From: Thermovibrio ammonificans HB-1
Lineage (GTDB): Bacteria > Aquificota > Aquificia > Desulfurobacteriales > Desulfurobacteriaceae
Direction of reading: 5' to 3'
DNA: 64,000 nt
NCBI RefSeq assembly: GCF_000185805.1
Contig: NC_014926.1
Span: forward strand, 328,418 to 392,417
In this document: piece by piece, positions 23,418 through 59,506 of the stretch
Numbering within the stretch: the stretch's first letter is position 1
Layout: every line of letters begins with the position of its first letter
Notes under the pieces: model-generated
What the model was told of the DNA's origin: nothing
The model's database searches: none
Seen by the model: only the letters and a program-made list of their open reading frames with translations
Made by a program: the position numbers and the translations under genes

Positions 23418-23594
23418 CTTTTACCTCCTTTTACCTATTTAGTGAGAAGTTTACAAAAGTGGTCTATCTATGAATTTTATTAATGCCTTTCCGTTGCAGT
23501 TGAGTTTTAATTATTGATGACGGAATTTCCGCTTTAATTTCATTTATGGCCTTTAAAAAAGCAAAAAAGTAAATAAAACTTAAAGGGAGGGGCC

Positions 23595-26354
23595 ATGCGA
23601 TTGCTTTTAAAACTTCTAACTGCTTCAATTTTTCTGGGGTATGCCGCCCAAGCACACCCGATTATCACCCTTAAGGATCAGTTCGGTAGGCCTGTTAGCG
23701 AAAGTCACCTGCCTATTGATATCAGGAGGAGCTGTGGTTCATGCCACGATGTCGATTTTATCGGCTCCTCTTTTCACTTTCAGCAGGGTAGGTTGGCGAT
23801 TCTTTCTGACGAGGTTTACAAGCTTTACTACGAAAGGTTCGGCGATTCTCAGTTTACTAACGGCCTTCCGAAAGAGCTGAGCAAGCTCGACATGGGAATG
23901 TACGGAAAGCTCTGAGCGCCCGCTTACCGCCAGTTGGCGCCCGTTAAGTCTTCTAACCCTCAAACTGTTGATATGACTACCCCCGAGTACGATGCTGCCT
24001 GCGGCATGTGCCACCCTGGCGGCGGTCCTATGGAGAGGGACCGGGAGGGGAATTTCCTTCACGAGAAGTCCCTGTCGGAGATAGAGGCCGCCCTCAGTAA
24101 CGGTGAGGTTCTCGGTGATTACACGGTTTGGAGTCCGAAGGAGAAGCGGTTCGTTCCTTTTGTCTGGACCATTTCCGCCGGAAACGAGACTGTAAATAAC
24201 ACCCTTGCTCCCAACTGTTTTATGTGCCATTCGAGCGTTATCGGCTCTCAGAACCCCTACGCTCCCTCTTCTACGTTTAATATGCCCCTGCTCTCTTACA
24301 GGTTGGCGACTTTTAAGCTGCGTTACTTTTCAGGTGCCGGAACTCTCTCTTCGGGAATTGCAACCCTGAACCCCGATAACACCTTTAACTACAACCTTGC
24401 CTTTGACGCCGATAACGCCACTGCCGGGTTACAGGTTGACGGTAGTTTTATAGTTCACTCCAACGATATGCACTGTAGTCAGTGTCACGGCGGCGGCTGG
24501 GACGACTTCGACGGTGACGGCAGGATAACCAAGCTGGATTTCCTCCTTCAGGTTAAGGACCTGCGCTACCTTCAGCCGGACGGTTTAAAGGAGGCTAAAG
24601 TTTGGTTCTTTAACGAGACCATTACCGACGGGAACTACGTCTCCTCTAAGGTAGACGGCTCTCTCATTCCGGTGCCCAGGAACGTTGACGTTCACAGGTG
24701 GGCAAGGTACGTAGGAGATGGCAACGTTAAAGGGTGTGTAGATTGCCACGCCCCTGTTAAGCACGACTATATAGGAACCGGTTACTTCCCCGATGTCCCC
24801 TCGCTCATTCCGTCCCACGATTTTGCAAAGGGTAACGCCGGTCCGGCGTTTACGGTAAGGTGGCACCAGCTTGCAGGTAGCGCTTCCTGCGAGAGTTGTC
24901 ATGAGAACCCGGTTGGGCTTCACTCGAGAGCTTTCGGCCCGGCAGCAGCCGAGCACCTGGAGAAGGTAGCCTGCACAACTTGCCACATTCCTAAGAAGTA
25001 CTTCTTTGAGGCTAAGCTGATGGACTGGACGTTACCTATGTTTGTGGTGTCCGGTGACAGTAACGGCTACACCTTCCTCGGCCTTACTAAGAACGTTTAC
25101 GTGGGCGGCGACTCCGTTAACGGAACACCGGTTGACGTTGCCCTCTTCCCGATTAGGGACTTTTCAACGGGTGAGGTGGTTTGGAAGTTAAGTGCTGCCA
25201 ATGCCATGGGGGTTCTGTTCTTTGCCGATAATTCGGAAGGGACCTTTAGGCCGGTGATTCCCCGTTACTTGGCTAAGGTTTTCGGCCTCAGTTACGACCT
25301 GCCGACCCGCTACATTATTGAGGAGGTGGACTCGAGCGGTAAACCGGTTAGGGTCGGTAGTTTCGGTCACCTGGTTCTGAAGGTGAAGAGCGGGGTTATA
25401 TCCCAGGATTCAGACCTTGCTGCTGGCGGTTGGAGGCTTATTAACGCCCTCCCCAACTTTATAGACGTTGACCAGGACGGAGCCTTTACTCCCGGCGTTG
25501 ATGTTCAGATAACCGACGATACCGGCCTTGACGGCTCTCCCGACGGAGTTCCCGAGGTTAACACCCAACGGGAGGTGAGCGCGGCCCTTTCTACGGTGAA
25601 AAAGGTTGTTTCCGGTGCCGTTGGGCGGGATGTGGAGGTGAAGCTCATTGCAACGGCTATTCCTTTCGGGGTTTCTCATAACGTAAGACCTGCTCCGGAG
25701 GCTTTGAGGTGTGACGACTGCCACGGCGGTAGGGAGAGTGAGCTTCAAGGGGCCGTTTTCACGAGGAAGGTAAACCTCTACTTCCCGTTTGACCCTGCGG
25801 TTGAGAACTCTACCGCTTTCGTGCCGAAGGTTCAGCGGACGCTTACCGAGTATGCCTTTGCAGATTGGACCAGGAGAGAGATTGAGTCTATGGGCTTTCC
25901 TGCTGCCATCCTCGACTACTCTACGGTTAAGGTAGAGGTAGACGGTGAAGTTATTGCCACCCGTGCTCAAACCGAGGAAGCCGCTTCTGCTTTAGGGGTT
26001 TCGGCCGGTGATTTAATAGCCGCGGTTGCGGTTGCTCCCTCCGATAACCCGTTTAAGGTGCTCTTTGAGATTAAGGAGCCTCTATCCGATTACGGTGTTA
26101 AGGTGGTTAACGGCACGGTTACTTCGAAGGTTGTTAGCGGTAACCGTCTTGAGGTTCAGGTTGCTCCCGCTTCCGGTAGAAGTGTTGTGGTTGGTCTTGT
26201 TAAGGAGGTGGCCGGTTCCGGCTCCTCGGCAGGGGTTAGCTCCGGAGGTGGGGGGTGCTCTTTCTCCCCGTCTGGGCCGGCAGGTCTCCTCTCCTACCTC
26301 CCGGCGGCTGTTGCCCTTGCCCTACTCAGGAGGAGACGCCGTTTAAGCGGCTAA
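23595..26354 (+). CDS. Octaheme c-type cytochrome with in-frame UGA (candidate selenocysteine) and C-terminal sorting tag
   Basis: I read 23595-26354 as one gene of 919 residues with UGA at codon 107. The first part has a signal peptide (LLKLLTASIFLGYAAQA) and one haem motif (CGSCH, residue 47). After the UGA the same frame continues with seven CXXCH motifs near 136, 208, 294, 381, 432, 460 and 706. The downstream frame has no signal peptide, no ATG and no ribosome site of its own, yet haem attachment needs export, so both halves must be one protein. Calcium-type loops (DFDGDGRITKLDF; DVDQDGAFTPG) suggest an extracellular protein. The end has Gly-rich GGGGCS, a hydrophobic helix and RRRRR, a Cys-containing CTERM-type sorting tag. 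It is probably a surface electron carrier. A pseudogene or sequencing error is the alternative. Confidence 0.8.
23913..23939 (+). promoter_or_regulatory. UGA codon with adjacent bacterial SECIS-like hairpin
   Basis: UGA occupies 23913-23915. Downstream, CGCC (23928-23931), loop AGUU (23932-23935) and GGCG (23936-23939) form a hairpin. The loop starts 16 bases after the UGA and has a G in its first two positions, which fits the general bacterial SECIS rules as I recall them. An outer pairing GCGCC (23916-23920) with GGCGC (23936-23940) is an alternative fold. The stem is short, so the element is a candidate only. Confidence 0.5.
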
Positions 26355-52893: not shown

Positions 52894-54270
52894 ATGAAGG
52901 GGAAGCTCAGCAAGCTTCGCACAGGGCTGCTGGCGGTTACCTTCGCTGCAGCAGCAGTGATTGGTCTTAATACTACCGACGCCAGCGCAGCCCTGAGGTA
53001 CATCTCTAAGGAGTCCCAGGCGTGCCTCGGCTGTCACAAGGGCATGAACCCCGCTCTTGTTCAGCAGTGGGCTACCAGCAAGCACGCCGATGCCGGTGTT
53101 GGCTGTTACGAGTGTCACCAGGCCAACAAGGGCGACAAGGACGCCTTCCAGCACTTTGGCTTCACAATCTCCACAATCGTATCTCCTCTCGACTGTGGTA
53201 AGTGTCACCCCAAAGAGGAGAAAGAGGTTACCGAGTCCCACCACGCAAAAGCTGCCCAGTTCGTTGGTTCTCTTGACAACGTTCTCGGTAGGATTGTAGA
53301 GGGTGAGCCTCTCTTCAACCTCGGTTGTGCACAGTGTCACGGCCGTACAATCCCCGTTAAGAACGGCCTCCCGATTCTTGGACCGTGGCCCAACGAGGGT
53401 ATCGGAAGGGTTAACCCCGACGGCTCCAAGGGTAACTGTGCTGCTTGCCACTACAGGCACAGTTTCAGCCTCAAGCAGGTTCGTGAGCCCGGTACTTGTG
53501 GTAAGTGTCACCAGGGTCCCGACCACCCGCAAATCGAGATTTGGGAGCTCTCCAAGCACGGTATCGCTTACAAGGCTCACCTGTCTGAAATCGAGCAGAC
53601 CCTCGACAGGGCTAAGTGGGTTCTCGGTGAGGACTACTACCAGGCTCCCAACTGTGTAACTTGCCACATGGGAGCTTCTGTAACCGGTGCTAAGCCGACT
53701 CACGACGTAGGTGCAAGGCTCTCCTGGACACTCAGGCCGCCTATCTCCAAGCACAAGCCCAACTGGCAGGCTAAGCGTGCCGAGATGAAGAAGGTTTGTG
53801 CAGCTTGCCACCAGAAACTCTGGATAGATGGTTTCTACTACCAGTACGACCAGCTTGTTGAGCTCTACAACAACAAGTTTGCTAAGCCTGCCGCAGCCAT
53901 CATGAAGTTCCTCAGGCAGAACAAGCTCATCGACCCGATTCCGTTCAACCAGAAGATTGAGTGGGAGTACTTCCTCCTCTGGCACCACGAAGGTCGTAGG
54001 GCAAGGATGGGTGCTTCTATGATGGCTCCCGACTGGACCCACTGGCACGGTCTCTTTGAAGTTGCTTACAACTTCTACTTCAAGCTCCTCCCCGAAGCCG
54101 ACAAGATTGTTGCCGAGAAGGGCAACAGGCGTGTTAAGAGGGAGTGGGCTGAGTTCAAGAAGAAGCTCTTCTCCAACCCGTACCACAAGTGGTTCCACGA
54201 GTTCAACAAGGAAGAGCTCAGGAAGATTGCAGAGTTCTACGTCAAGCGTTACGGAGAGGCTGCTCAGTAA
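52894..54270 (+). CDS. Octaheme hydroxylamine oxidoreductase-like cytochrome c (probably reductive)
   Basis: This 458-aa exported protein has a signal peptide ending TTDASA. Eight CXXCH motifs begin near residues 44, 71, 101, 145, 182, 202, 254 and 302, in HAO-family order. After the last haem come the family blocks HHEGRRARMGASMM and PDWTHWHG. HAO enzymes with a cross-linked P460 haem carry, as I recall, a Tyr in that block (PDYTxWHG). Here it is Trp, pointing to a reductive enzyme that converts nitrite or hydroxylamine, as proposed for the epsilon-proteobacterial Hao proteins. Strong promoter upstream, terminator downstream. Role in ammonification is inferred. Confidence 0.9.
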   Translation: MKGKLSKLRTGLLAVTFAAAAVIGLNTTDASAALRYISKESQACLGCHKGMNPALVQQWATSKHADAGVGCYECHQANKGDKDAFQHFGFTISTIVSPLDCGKCHPKEEKEVTESHHAKAAQFVGSLDNVLGRIVEGEPLFNLGCAQCHGRTIPVKNGLPILGPWPNEGIGRVNPDGSKGNCAACHYRHSFSLKQVREPGTCGKCHQGPDHPQIEIWELSKHGIAYKAHLSEIEQTLDRAKWVLGEDYYQAPNCVTCHMGASVTGAKPTHDVGARLSWTLRPPISKHKPNWQAKRAEMKKVCAACHQKLWIDGFYYQYDQLVELYNNKFAKPAAAIMKFLRQNKLIDPIPFNQKIEWEYFLLWHHEGRRARMGASMMAPDWTHWHGLFEVAYNFYFKLLPEADKIVAEKGNRRVKREWAEFKKKLFSNPYHKWFHEFNKEELRKIAEFYVKRYGEAAQ

Positions 54271-55832: not shown

Positions 55833-56396
55833 GTGGCGGAGAAGAAGGCCTTTGTAGTAGGTGCCATTGTCGGAGCTGTTGTTGCAGGCGTTGGTGCCCT
55901 TATAGCGGCCCAGATGATAGAGGAGACCTCAACGCCTGAGTTCTGTAGCTCCTGTCACGAGATGAAGCCCATGTACGAGACCTGGAAGACCGGACCCCAC
56001 GGTCCCCTCGGGAACAAGAGGGGGGCAATAAGGGCTGCGTGTACCCAGTGTCACCTGCCCCACGGAAATGTTGTAACATATCTTGTAACTAAGGGTATGT
56101 CCGGAACGAGAGACTTCATCGGTCACATCTTCCACGGAGGCTGGGTTAACGACCCGGAACACTGGATAGAGAAGAGACAGGAGCGTGAGCGTTACGTATT
56201 CGTGTCTAACTGTGAGCACTGCCATGTGGCACTGCCGGACAACATCATGCACGAAAAGCTTAAGGCCGGCGAGATTAAGGGCGACTGCCTTACCTGCCAC
56301 TGGTATGTCGGCCACGGATTTGACTTAGAGCAGAAGTTGAAGGAATATTTTAGTAAGAAGGGAGAGAGTGAAACCACTGGAGAGGCTCACGAGTAG
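55833..56396 (+). CDS. napC: NapC/NirT-type tetraheme quinol dehydrogenase
   Basis: This membrane-anchored tetrahaem cytochrome takes electrons from menaquinol. GTG 55833 follows AGGAGG. Residues 6-28 form the single anchor helix. Four CXXCH motifs begin at about 38, 70, 127 and 152. The N-terminal TPEFCSSCHEMKP is the NapC/NrfH signature. At 187 aa it is of normal NapC length. It is upstream of napM and napA, fitting the order napCMADGH. Confidence 0.93.
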   Translation: MAEKKAFVVGAIVGAVVAGVGALIAAQMIEETSTPEFCSSCHEMKPMYETWKTGPHGPLGNKRGAIRAACTQCHLPHGNVVTYLVTKGMSGTRDFIGHIFHGGWVNDPEHWIEKRQERERYVFVSNCEHCHVALPDNIMHEKLKAGEIKGDCLTCHWYVGHGFDLEQKLKEYFSKKGESETTGEAHE

Positions 56397-56857: not shown

Positions 56858-59506
56858 ATGGGAATTGGAAGGAGAGACTTCCTCAAAAAGAGTGCTGCTC
56901 TAACGGCAGCTTCTCTTGTTGGGGTTAACCTAAAGATAAAGGCAGACCAGCTTCCCACCTTTGAAGAGGCCAAGGCCGAAGAAAACCTTATGAGAATTCC
57001 CGAGGAGGTTAAGAAGTCTCCTGCTTACAAGAAAGAGGGAGGTTACACCTGGGTAAGGGGTGTTTGCCGTTTCTGCGGAACCGGGTGTAAGGTATGGCTC
57101 GGTTTCAGGAACGGAAAACCTGCAGTAATCCGCGGTGAGCGCCACTCCCAGATTAACTTCGGCTTCCTCTGCATGAAGGGAATGCTCTTTTACAAGCTCT
57201 TCAGGCACCCCGACAGGCTTACCCAGCCCCTCTACAGGAAGAGCAAGAAGGAGCCCTTCAGGCCTATTTCCTGGGAAGAGGCTTACAACATCATTGCCGA
57301 CGAGATGATTAAAGCTATGAAGAAGGGAGAGTGGACTCCCTTCGGTTGGTCCGGCATTGCCTACTACGGTTCCGGTCAGGCCCTTACGGAAGAGACCTAC
57401 CTTTTCCAGAAGCTCTTCAGGTGCATCGGAACCAACCAGGTAGAGGGTAACCCCAGGCTCTGTATGGCATCTGCGGTTGGTGGTTACCTTACATCTTTCG
57501 GAACAGACGAGCCTGCAGGTGGTTATGCAGACCTCGACAAGGCTCAAACCGTCTTCATCATAGGTTCCAACACTGCAGAGTGTCACCCGATTCTCTACCG
57601 CCGTATTATGCACAACAAGCTTGCAAGGCCCAACGAGTACATGGTAATTAACGTAGACCCGAGGATTTCTCCCACCTCTAAGATTGCAGATATCCACATG
57701 CAGTTTAAGCCCGGAACAGACCTCGCCCTTCTCAACGCTATAGCCCATGTAATCGTTAACGAGGGCCTCTACGATAAGGAGTTCGTGAACAAGTACTGTG
57801 CTTTCCACATCTACACCAAAGGAAAGGACAAAGTTCCCCTTATCGGTCACCAGGTATCCTTCGAGGAGTACAAGCGTTTCCTCCAGAAGTACACGCCCGA
57901 GTACGCTGCTCAAATCTGCGGCGGGAACATCACTCCCGAGATGATTAGAAAGGTTGCAAGGCGCTTTGCAACCACAAGAACGGTTTCCATATGGACAATG
58001 GGTCTCAACCAGAGGACCCGCGGTGTATGGGCAAACAACCTGGTAACCAACCTCCACCTCCTTACAGGTAACATCTGCAAGGACGGTGCAGACGCCCTCT
58101 CCCTTACTGGTCAGCCCAACGCCTGTGGTGGTGTTCGTGAAGGTGGCGGTCTGTGTCACATCCTTCCCGGTCACAGGTTTGTTAAGAGTGCCCACGACAG
58201 GCATCAGCTTGAGAGAATCTGGGGCGTTCCTCAGGGAACCATTCCTCCCAAGCCCGGTTACCACACTGTAAAGATGTTCTCTGCTTGCTCCTACACCGAG
58301 GAGGACAGGAAGAGGTTCCCCGGCCTCAAGAAGATTTATTTCATGTGGATAGAGGAGACCAACCCGCTGCAGTCTCTCCCCAACCTTAGGAGGTTCCGTG
58401 AAGCCTTCCGTAACAGGGAAGACCTCTTCGTTGTTGTAAACGACATCTTCCCCACAAGGACAACCGAGTTTGCAAACCTCATTCTTCCAACACCGTTCCA
58501 CTTTGAAAAGACAGGTGTTTACGGATGTACCGAGCGCCGTTCTCAGCTGACACCTGTTGCCGTTAAAGCTCCCGGACAGTGTAAGCCCGAGCTTCAAATC
58601 ATCGTTGAGTTTGCTCAGGTTCTTGCCAAGAAGCTCAGGCGTGAGCGTGACCCGAGGATGAGGCAGCGTGCCCACACCGTTTACCAGTGTGTAGCTCCGT
58701 TTATAGAGGCTGCCAAGCGTGACCCCTGGTGGGAGCTTGCTAAAGAGGTTTGGAGTGAATACGCCGGTAGGGTTACGAAGGGGCAGGACAACGACCTCTC
58801 CGGAGCCACCTACGAAGTTCTCCTTGCAAGGCCCGACGGCGTTCAGTGGCCTGCACCTACAGTTGAGATTGCAATGAAGGGCGGAACTCTCAGAAGGTTC
58901 GTTGTTGGTAAAGACCCGCTTGCTACCAAGTTTGCCAAGGAGTGGGGTCTCACCGACTGGAAGGTTGTTGACTACGGCCACCTCCACAAGGACCATAAGT
59001 TCTGGATTTGGCTCAGGCCTTACAAAGGTCCTGCCGAGCCTCCAGATGCCGAATACCCGTTCTACCTCTCTACAGGCCGTGTTATCGACATGTGGCATAC
59101 CGCTACAATGACCGGCCGTATCCCCGAGCTTGCAAACGACTACCCCTACGCTTGGGTAGAGGTTAACCCGAAGGATGCTCAGCGTCTCGGCATTAATCCC
59201 GGCGACCTCGTTCTCATCGAGACCCGTCGCGGTAAGAACATCATTCCCGCCCGCATCTCTACCGACGAAGGCCCGATGGAGGGTATGGTCTTCGTTTACT
59301 GGTACGACCAGGAGAAGCACAGGATGATTAACTACTGTACCATTGATGCGTTCGATCCCGGCTCTAAGCAGCCCGAGTTCAAGATTTGTGCTTGCCGCAT
59401 TAAGAAGTATGCTCCTGCTCAACCCCTCAAGCAGTACCTTGTTAAGCTTGAGAAGGTTAGGGGCGGATACCTCCACAACGCCGAGCTTGACCCGAACGAG
59501 GTTTAA
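56858..59506 (+). CDS. napA: Periplasmic nitrate reductase catalytic subunit NapA
   Basis: This 882-aa molybdo-bis-MGD enzyme reduces nitrate to nitrite in the periplasm. The Tat signal is RRDFLKKSAALTAASLVG. The [4Fe-4S] cysteines are near 70, 73, 77 and 105 (CRFCGTGC; FLCMKG). The Mo ligand is Cys near 202 in NPRLCMASAVGG, so it is a Cys and not a selenocysteine enzyme. The family block NTAECHPILYRRI lies further on. Start ATG 56858 follows AAGGAGG. A terminator hairpin just downstream could lower expression of napDGH relative to napA. Confidence 0.97.
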   Translation: MGIGRRDFLKKSAALTAASLVGVNLKIKADQLPTFEEAKAEENLMRIPEEVKKSPAYKKEGGYTWVRGVCRFCGTGCKVWLGFRNGKPAVIRGERHSQINFGFLCMKGMLFYKLFRHPDRLTQPLYRKSKKEPFRPISWEEAYNIIADEMIKAMKKGEWTPFGWSGIAYYGSGQALTEETYLFQKLFRCIGTNQVEGNPRLCMASAVGGYLTSFGTDEPAGGYADLDKAQTVFIIGSNTAECHPILYRRIMHNKLARPNEYMVINVDPRISPTSKIADIHMQFKPGTDLALLNAIAHVIVNEGLYDKEFVNKYCAFHIYTKGKDKVPLIGHQVSFEEYKRFLQKYTPEYAAQICGGNITPEMIRKVARRFATTRTVSIWTMGLNQRTRGVWANNLVTNLHLLTGNICKDGADALSLTGQPNACGGVREGGGLCHILPGHRFVKSAHDRHQLERIWGVPQGTIPPKPGYHTVKMFSACSYTEEDRKRFPGLKKIYFMWIEETNPLQSLPNLRRFREAFRNREDLFVVVNDIFPTRTTEFANLILPTPFHFEKTGVYGCTERRSQLTPVAVKAPGQCKPELQIIVEFAQVLAKKLRRERDPRMRQRAHTVYQCVAPFIEAAKRDPWWELAKEVWSEYAGRVTKGQDNDLSGATYEVLLARPDGVQWPAPTVEIAMKGGTLRRFVVGKDPLATKFAKEWGLTDWKVVDYGHLHKDHKFWIWLRPYKGPAEPPDAEYPFYLSTGRVIDMWHTATMTGRIPELANDYPYAWVEVNPKDAQRLGINPGDLVLIETRRGKNIIPARISTDEGPMEGMVFVYWYDQEKHRMINYCTIDAFDPGSKQPEFKICACRIKKYAPAQPLKQYLVKLEKVRGGYLHNAELDPNEV

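Follow-up and report, generated by a model that had tools for sequence, protein, structure and literature searches.

Does the UGA at positions 23913–23915 of this stretch of Thermovibrio ammonificans HB-1 DNA (64,000 nucleotides; hereafter 'the window') bring a short monohaem peptide to an end, or is it read through within one much larger cytochrome? The initial annotation of the locus favoured the latter, with the UGA encoding selenocysteine (Sec). Our comparative analysis leads to the same answer: judged from sequence, UGA 23913 is very probably decoded as Sec107 of a single, exported, octahaem c-type cytochrome.

A single reading frame with one internal UGA

Reading from the 5′ end, the gene (23595–26354, forward strand; 919 amino acids with the single UGA read through; assigned to subfamily A, see below) begins with an ATG at 23595, preceded by a ribosome-binding site (AGGGAGG, 23583–23594), and encodes an N-terminus that resembles a signal peptide (MRLLLKLLTASIFLGYAAQA-HP), predicted to span residues 1–20 (23595–23654); the hydrophobic character of this segment is conserved among orthologues. 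The only internal stop in the frame is the UGA itself, at residue 107, after which the frame stays open to its terminal stop. Eight CXXCH motifs are present. One lies 5′ of the UGA: haem 1 (CGSCH, residues 47–51, 23733–23747). The other seven lie 3′ of it: haem 2 (CGMCH, residues 136–140, 24000–24014), haem 3 (CFMCH, residues 208–212, 24216–24230), haem 4 (CSQCH, residues 294–298, 24474–24488), haem 5 (CVDCH, residues 381–385, 24735–24749), haem 6 (CESCH, residues 432–436, 24888–24902), haem 7 (CTTCH, residues 460–464, 24972–24986) and haem 8 (CDDCH, residues 706–710, 25710–25724).

The layout given in the initial annotation, a signal-like N-terminus with one haem motif on the 5′ side of the UGA and seven on the 3′ side, therefore stands; its C-terminal sorting tag does so in part. 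The segment in question (26241–26351), Gly-rich around Cys888 and followed by a hydrophobic stretch and RRRRR, is conserved in orthologues and in the paralogues P0002–P0004, but no NCBIfam sorting-tag model scored over its cut-off for the window protein or the paralogues, and we describe it as a putative tag for surface sorting or anchoring. P0002, P0003 and P0004 each end in the same succession: a Gly-run with Cys, next a hydrophobic stretch, and last a tail of Arg/Lys.

Were the UGA a real stop, the locus would instead encode a 106-amino acid monohaem leader and, separately, a heptahaem cytochrome started at TTG 23934. This TTG, 18 nt after the UGA, is conserved in every gene, as the two-protein arrangement would have it; it falls, however, within an invariant hairpin (described below), which accounts for its conservation. 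It is the sole start available to the downstream ORF, lacks a Shine-Dalgarno sequence and would yield a product lacking the export signal on which haem attachment depends, in keeping with the earlier judgement that the second part alone is not a sensible gene. Moreover, UGA, and never another stop, is kept in 36 frames, and in a Sec-less paralogue (subfamily D) the frame runs on uninterrupted, Ser taking the place of the UGA. Taking these points together, we regard two separate proteins as very improbable.

A lone in-frame stop in a long ORF is equally the mark of a pseudogene or a sequencing error; here we consider either to be so improbable as to be negligible. The UGA is kept in 17 genomes, and there is purifying selection on both sides of it: pN/pS is 0.17–0.28 before the UGA and 0.26–0.44 in the 100 codons after, values to be read with synonymous sites near saturation. 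The HB-1 genome (1,759,526 bp in total, with a chromosome of 1,682,965 bp) is finished, having been sequenced to 40x with 454 and 4,285x with Illumina (PMC3570795), and an error at this codon is thus very unlikely; such depth, together with the 36 frames in 17 genomes, excludes the sequencing error that the initial annotation had raised as a means by which its reading might fail.

Conservation of the UGA across three subfamilies

Orthologues of the window gene (subfamily A) are found in eight other Desulfurobacteriaceae genomes, the UGA being kept in nine genomes in all; each orthologue, at 52–57% overall identity to the window protein, has exactly one UGA, with frame and motif unchanged. The context reads MYGKL-U-PPAYRQLAP in the alignment, with UAP in the window copy, confirming the MYGKL-U-APAYRQL segment noted earlier between haems 1 and 2. 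Two further subfamilies, B and C, comprise longer paralogous octahaem cytochromes in which a UGA also lies between haems 1 and 2, here in the context W-U-PPSYRQLA. The T. ammonificans genome carries one gene of each UGA-containing subfamily, those for B (P0002, 1,525 amino acids) and C (P0003, 1,312 amino acids) being located at C2:1644007-1648581 and C2:925478-929413, respectively.

We searched 136 Aquificota genomes with a profile covering the region from haem 1 to haem 2 and obtained 42 matches in 17 of them, all Desulfurobacteriaceae; 36 of the matches have one UGA and six have none. Across the alignment, UGA occupies the site in 31/31 UGA-type genes, and the five aligned UGA-less genes, which form subfamily D, have Ser codons there (TCA in three, TCT in one and AGT in one). 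The initial annotation had looked to homologues for Sec or Cys with conservation on both sides: the UGA and its flanking conservation were found, but the profile search of the 136 genomes returned no homologue with Cys at this position, its place being taken by Ser in the one paralogue clade. A tblastn search of plasmids with the window protein (P0001) gave no match, and a search of contigs with short peptide patterns, drawn from one sequence and thus liable to miss distant homologues, matched only in two Desulfurobacteriaceae. With three related proteins sharing one identical RNA signal (described below), the UGA-containing cytochromes almost certainly represent a genuine, little-studied family of selenium proteins rather than a broken gene. 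As a separate observation, the subfamily D paralogue at L020 (G016:C19) has an in-frame TAG some 260 codons in, and is possibly a pseudogene or the product of an assembly error.

Selenocysteine machinery and a candidate recoding hairpin

All four sel genes, whose presence the initial annotation had put forward as a check, are in the T. ammonificans genome: selA (616 bits), selB (423 bits) and selD (365 bits) each score over the curated cut-off, and selC, the tRNA-Sec, scores 80.7 bits against a cut-off of 47 bits and has the anticodon UCA. This agrees with the published tRNA set of HB-1, which includes selenocysteine (PMC5441870). The selD gene carries an in-frame UGA of its own, in an SGUG context (L045, G000:C2:1591236-1592159), and SelB is over cut-off in 14/14 other Desulfurobacteriaceae genomes tested.

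Downstream of the cytochrome UGA we find a hairpin resembling a bacterial SECIS element (bSECIS; UACCGCCAGUUGGCG, 23925–23939, forward strand), with its 5′ arm at 23928–23931, an AGUU loop at 23932–23935 and its 3′ arm at 23936–23939. The stem pairs CGCC with GGCG, over 4 bp in subfamily A and extended to five pairs in B and C, and the loop starts after 16 nt from the UGA. The published model calls for a loop of 3–9 nt, a stem of 4–16 bp, a distance of 16–37 nt from the UGA and, at the first or second position of the loop, a G with G or U after it (PMC13188914); the family hairpin agrees with this geometry in loop, stem, loop G and spacing.

The hairpin is nucleotide-invariant in all UGA genes. 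Around the UGA, the alignment of 31 such genes contains 25 amino-acid-invariant columns, 20 of which use at least two codons; only the segment YRQLA, which begins 9 nt downstream of the UGA, is written with a single set of codons (UAC CGC CAG UUG GCG) in 31/31, three of these being rare choices for their amino acid in the UGA genes (CGC 7.6%, TTG 6.1% and GCG 6.9%). Synonymous resampling seldom reproduces the hairpin. In the D genes, which lack Sec, the UGA, the YRQLA codons and the hairpin are all missing. Searching with the pattern UGA-N12-CGCCAGUUGGCG gave 36 matches, in 17/61 genomes; the reversed control gave none in 61.

Folding energies do not single the hairpin out, and our argument for a SECIS therefore rests on codon invariance and not on energy. 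Against the bSECIS threshold of −7.5 kcal/mol, the minimum free energy is −9.4 for B and C and −5.7, over 20 nt, for an isolated A-type hairpin; the window copy reaches −11.2 kcal/mol only by way of a competing stem, its predicted minimum-free-energy fold being a different stem. Single-sequence z-scores lie between −0.9 and −1.5 (about −1.2, and so unexceptional, for the window copy), with the near-certain SelD case likewise at −0.9. As the hairpin never varies, covariation is not usable as support. The T. ammonificans selD has, at about the same spacing from its UGA, a hairpin with the loop GGUC; what sets the cytochrome hairpin apart from those of other SelB-dependent selenoproteins, FdhA and SelD for example, is its nucleotide invariance across three very divergent paralogous subfamilies.

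The hairpin was not part of the initial annotation; with the sel genes and the conserved UGA, it lends support to the Sec reading proposed there. In our model, SelB and tRNA-Sec would decode UGA 23913 as Sec107 under the direction of this CGCC-AGUU-GGCG hairpin, set inside the coding sequence.

Relationship to octahaem tetrathionate reductase

The family is distantly collinear with octahaem tetrathionate reductase (OTR; TIGR04315, PDB 1SP3); against the TIGR04315 model, subfamilies A, B and C score 63.6, 24.7 and 30.0 bits, respectively, all below the curated cut-off of 375 bits. The A3 profile matches Shewanella OTR (PDB: 1SP3) at 2.5e-5, and hhalign, comparing the Sec family with OTR-like proteins, gave 97.9% for the haem-1 region and 97.3% for haems 4–7, taken in order. 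The aligned haem-1 segments read SCLPCHKKEVEDVFHSYHFQM in the OTR-like proteins and SCGSCHDVDFIGSSFHFQQ in the Sec family. The eight haems are collinear with those of OTR, haem 1 and haems 4–8 by alignment, haems 2 and 3 from their order alone, and motifs are alike at haem 1, at haems 5 to 7 (haem 7 lying within a CHIP motif common to OTR) and at haem 8, which is preceded by HNVRP where OTR has HMVSP. Differences are also apparent: proteins of the Sec family are about twice the size of OTR or more, have Sec in a UPPxYRQLA context, and show no evident counterpart of the OTR Lys motif (AVKHGDL after haem 4; KHGD-type). One Sec member of TIGR04315, WP_331457571.1, annotated as such in GenBank, appears in a review of 2026 (PMC13188914).

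By position, Sec107 has a possible counterpart. OTR carries a free Cys between haems 1 and 2 (INNFC64), as do OTR-like proteins (NDYC). Cys64 and Sec107 fall in the same interval between haems, with any equivalence given by haem order, as the intervening stretch does not align. Three genomes of genus g7 (G009, G014 and G017), without the Sec family, have OTR-like octahaem cytochromes with a nearly full-length match to TIGR04315; in these relatives from the same family, Desulfurobacteriaceae, a free Cys (NDYC) precedes haem 2 and there is no UGA (L098, L100), in contrast to the UGA of the Sec family. The g7 loci are L098 (G017), L099 (G009) and L100 (G014), of which the G009 copy has an in-frame TAA.

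A possible role for Sec107

Catalysis in OTR takes place at haem II (PMC4484225), which is ligated by Lys (PMC12285233); the counterpart of haem II in the window protein, by collinear order, is haem 2. This order, and the free Cys found shortly before the catalytic haem in OTR, lead us to suggest, tentatively, that Sec107 occupies or neighbours an active site at haem 2. The initial annotation had pictured the selenolate as a ligand or a redox partner of haem iron; by analogy with OTR, Sec may belong to an active site at haem 2 and do more than simply ligate a haem. AlphaFold2 modelling of P0001 from 21 aligned sequences gave too poor a result to place Sec107 (mean pLDDT 48.7, pTM 0.34).

In the mechanism we have in mind, the selenolate of Sec107 would sit at the active-site haem 2 and there either attack an S-, Se- or N-oxo substrate or bind it; the other haems would deliver the electrons, drawn from the periplasm or the outer membrane. 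T. ammonificans respires sulfur or nitrate, and a sulfur-compound reductase is for this reason our leading guess; that the protein is a reductase acting on sulfur or a related substrate is nonetheless doubtful enough to be called a guess.

Sec might alternatively serve as the axial ligand of haem 2, or of another haem, and tune its potential, in which case the protein would be an electron-transfer cytochrome and not an enzyme. All eight haems are of the CXXCH type and the C-terminus of the family resembles a surface tag, as would befit such a carrier, and with the Lys motif of OTR not evident a replacement ligand is conceivable. Known selenoproteins, however, nearly always use Sec for catalysis (PMC13188914), and here Sec lies in the interval of the OTR-family free Cys, whereas the catalytic haem of OTR takes Lys as its ligand. 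We therefore think a ligand role unlikely, and retain the active-site placement as our working model.

Probable origin and loss of selenocysteine

In a quick maximum-likelihood analysis of the haem 1–7 core, with OTR-like proteins outside, the topology is ((A,D),(B,C)), the fork uniting A and D having an SH-aLRT of 93. D thus groups with A, nested inside the Sec tree, which points to a single loss: Sec was probably present before the three UGA-containing subfamilies diverged and gave way to Ser on one occasion, in D. The branches between A+D and B+C are very long, so that recent ancestry does not explain the identity of the hairpin.

Drawing these threads together, we put forward, with some hesitation, selenoenzymes of a new class, their selenolate working at a c-type haem and Sec having replaced the Cys by catalytic haem 2 of an OTR-like octahaem reductase. 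Sec would go back to the common ancestor of the three paralogous cytochromes, surface or periplasmic, of the Desulfurobacteriaceae, with one loss, to Ser.

Comparison with ExtKL

The initial annotation suggested that related UGA-containing multihaem cytochromes might exist in metal-reducing bacteria, and this proves to be right. ExtKL of Geobacter (gsu2937-gsu2936) is a predicted Sec cytochrome of five haems and 49.5 kDa, encoded in the ext gene cluster; its proposed role is selenite reduction, and the cluster has been tied to selenite/tellurite reduction (PMC5877670). The ExtKL family, from Geobacteraceae, is listed in the 2026 review as NF040886 (PMC13188914). As in the window gene, an in-frame UGA would be read as Sec within a c-type multihaem cytochrome, annotated in the case of ExtKL as two genes; gene callers that do not recode UGA will likewise split the cytochrome genes described here. 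The window family differs in its eight haems, its greater mass (from about 100 kDa upwards), its genes, which stand alone, and its three paralogues. NF040886 has no match in the T. ammonificans genome, is absent from the NCBIfam matches of P0001–P0003, and gave only weak partial matches across the 23 genomes searched; nor did we find an ext cluster (ExtI porin, ExtM, ExtN, ExtO, ExtP) at the window locus, where the neighbours are housekeeping genes.

Since the family matches neither NF040886 nor TIGR04315 over cut-off, and given the precedent of ExtKL, what is new is a variety of Sec multihaem cytochrome (eight haems, three paralogous lines, in Aquificota), Sec multihaem cytochromes as such being already known. 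Our literature search found no paper describing a Sec octahaem cytochrome family, and none defining a catalytic role for Sec in multihaem cytochromes, an arrangement known from very few predicted families. Here a single cultivable thermophile with a finished genome holds three Sec cytochromes with an identical recoding signal, and its relatives carry a natural Sec-to-Ser paralogue; T. ammonificans and these Ser-type relatives thus offer a direct system in which to ask what selenium does beside haem.

Genomic neighbourhood and other cytochromes

The subfamily A gene keeps its position among relatives, with hrcA/gamma carbonic anhydrase on one side and rpe/prs on the other (named by recognising their sequences); these neighbours are of the housekeeping kind and indicate no substrate or partner. 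A PPIC-type peptidyl-prolyl isomerase adjoins or is near the B genes in the loci examined, and is also near the C gene of T. ammonificans; such an isomerase suits an exported, complex protein, and it is possible that it acts as a dedicated folding factor. PPIC-type isomerases, often lipoprotein-like, are seen 3′ of subfamily B genes at L048:1144-2388 (reverse strand) and L064:9217-10509 (forward strand), for example.

Two other multihaem cytochromes deserve mention. The window holds a second octahaem cytochrome (52894–54270; 458 amino acids, no UGA), upstream of a NapC/NrfH-like gene (55833–56396) and a NapA-like molybdopterin oxidoreductase (56858–59506); it resembles an octahaem protein of the hydroxylamine-oxidoreductase type, serving nitrate ammonification. 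In genome G005, a 1,025-amino acid cytochrome with 28 CXXCH motifs (L067:972-4049, forward strand) adjoins an NHL-repeat propeller protein, beside a subfamily C Sec cytochrome.
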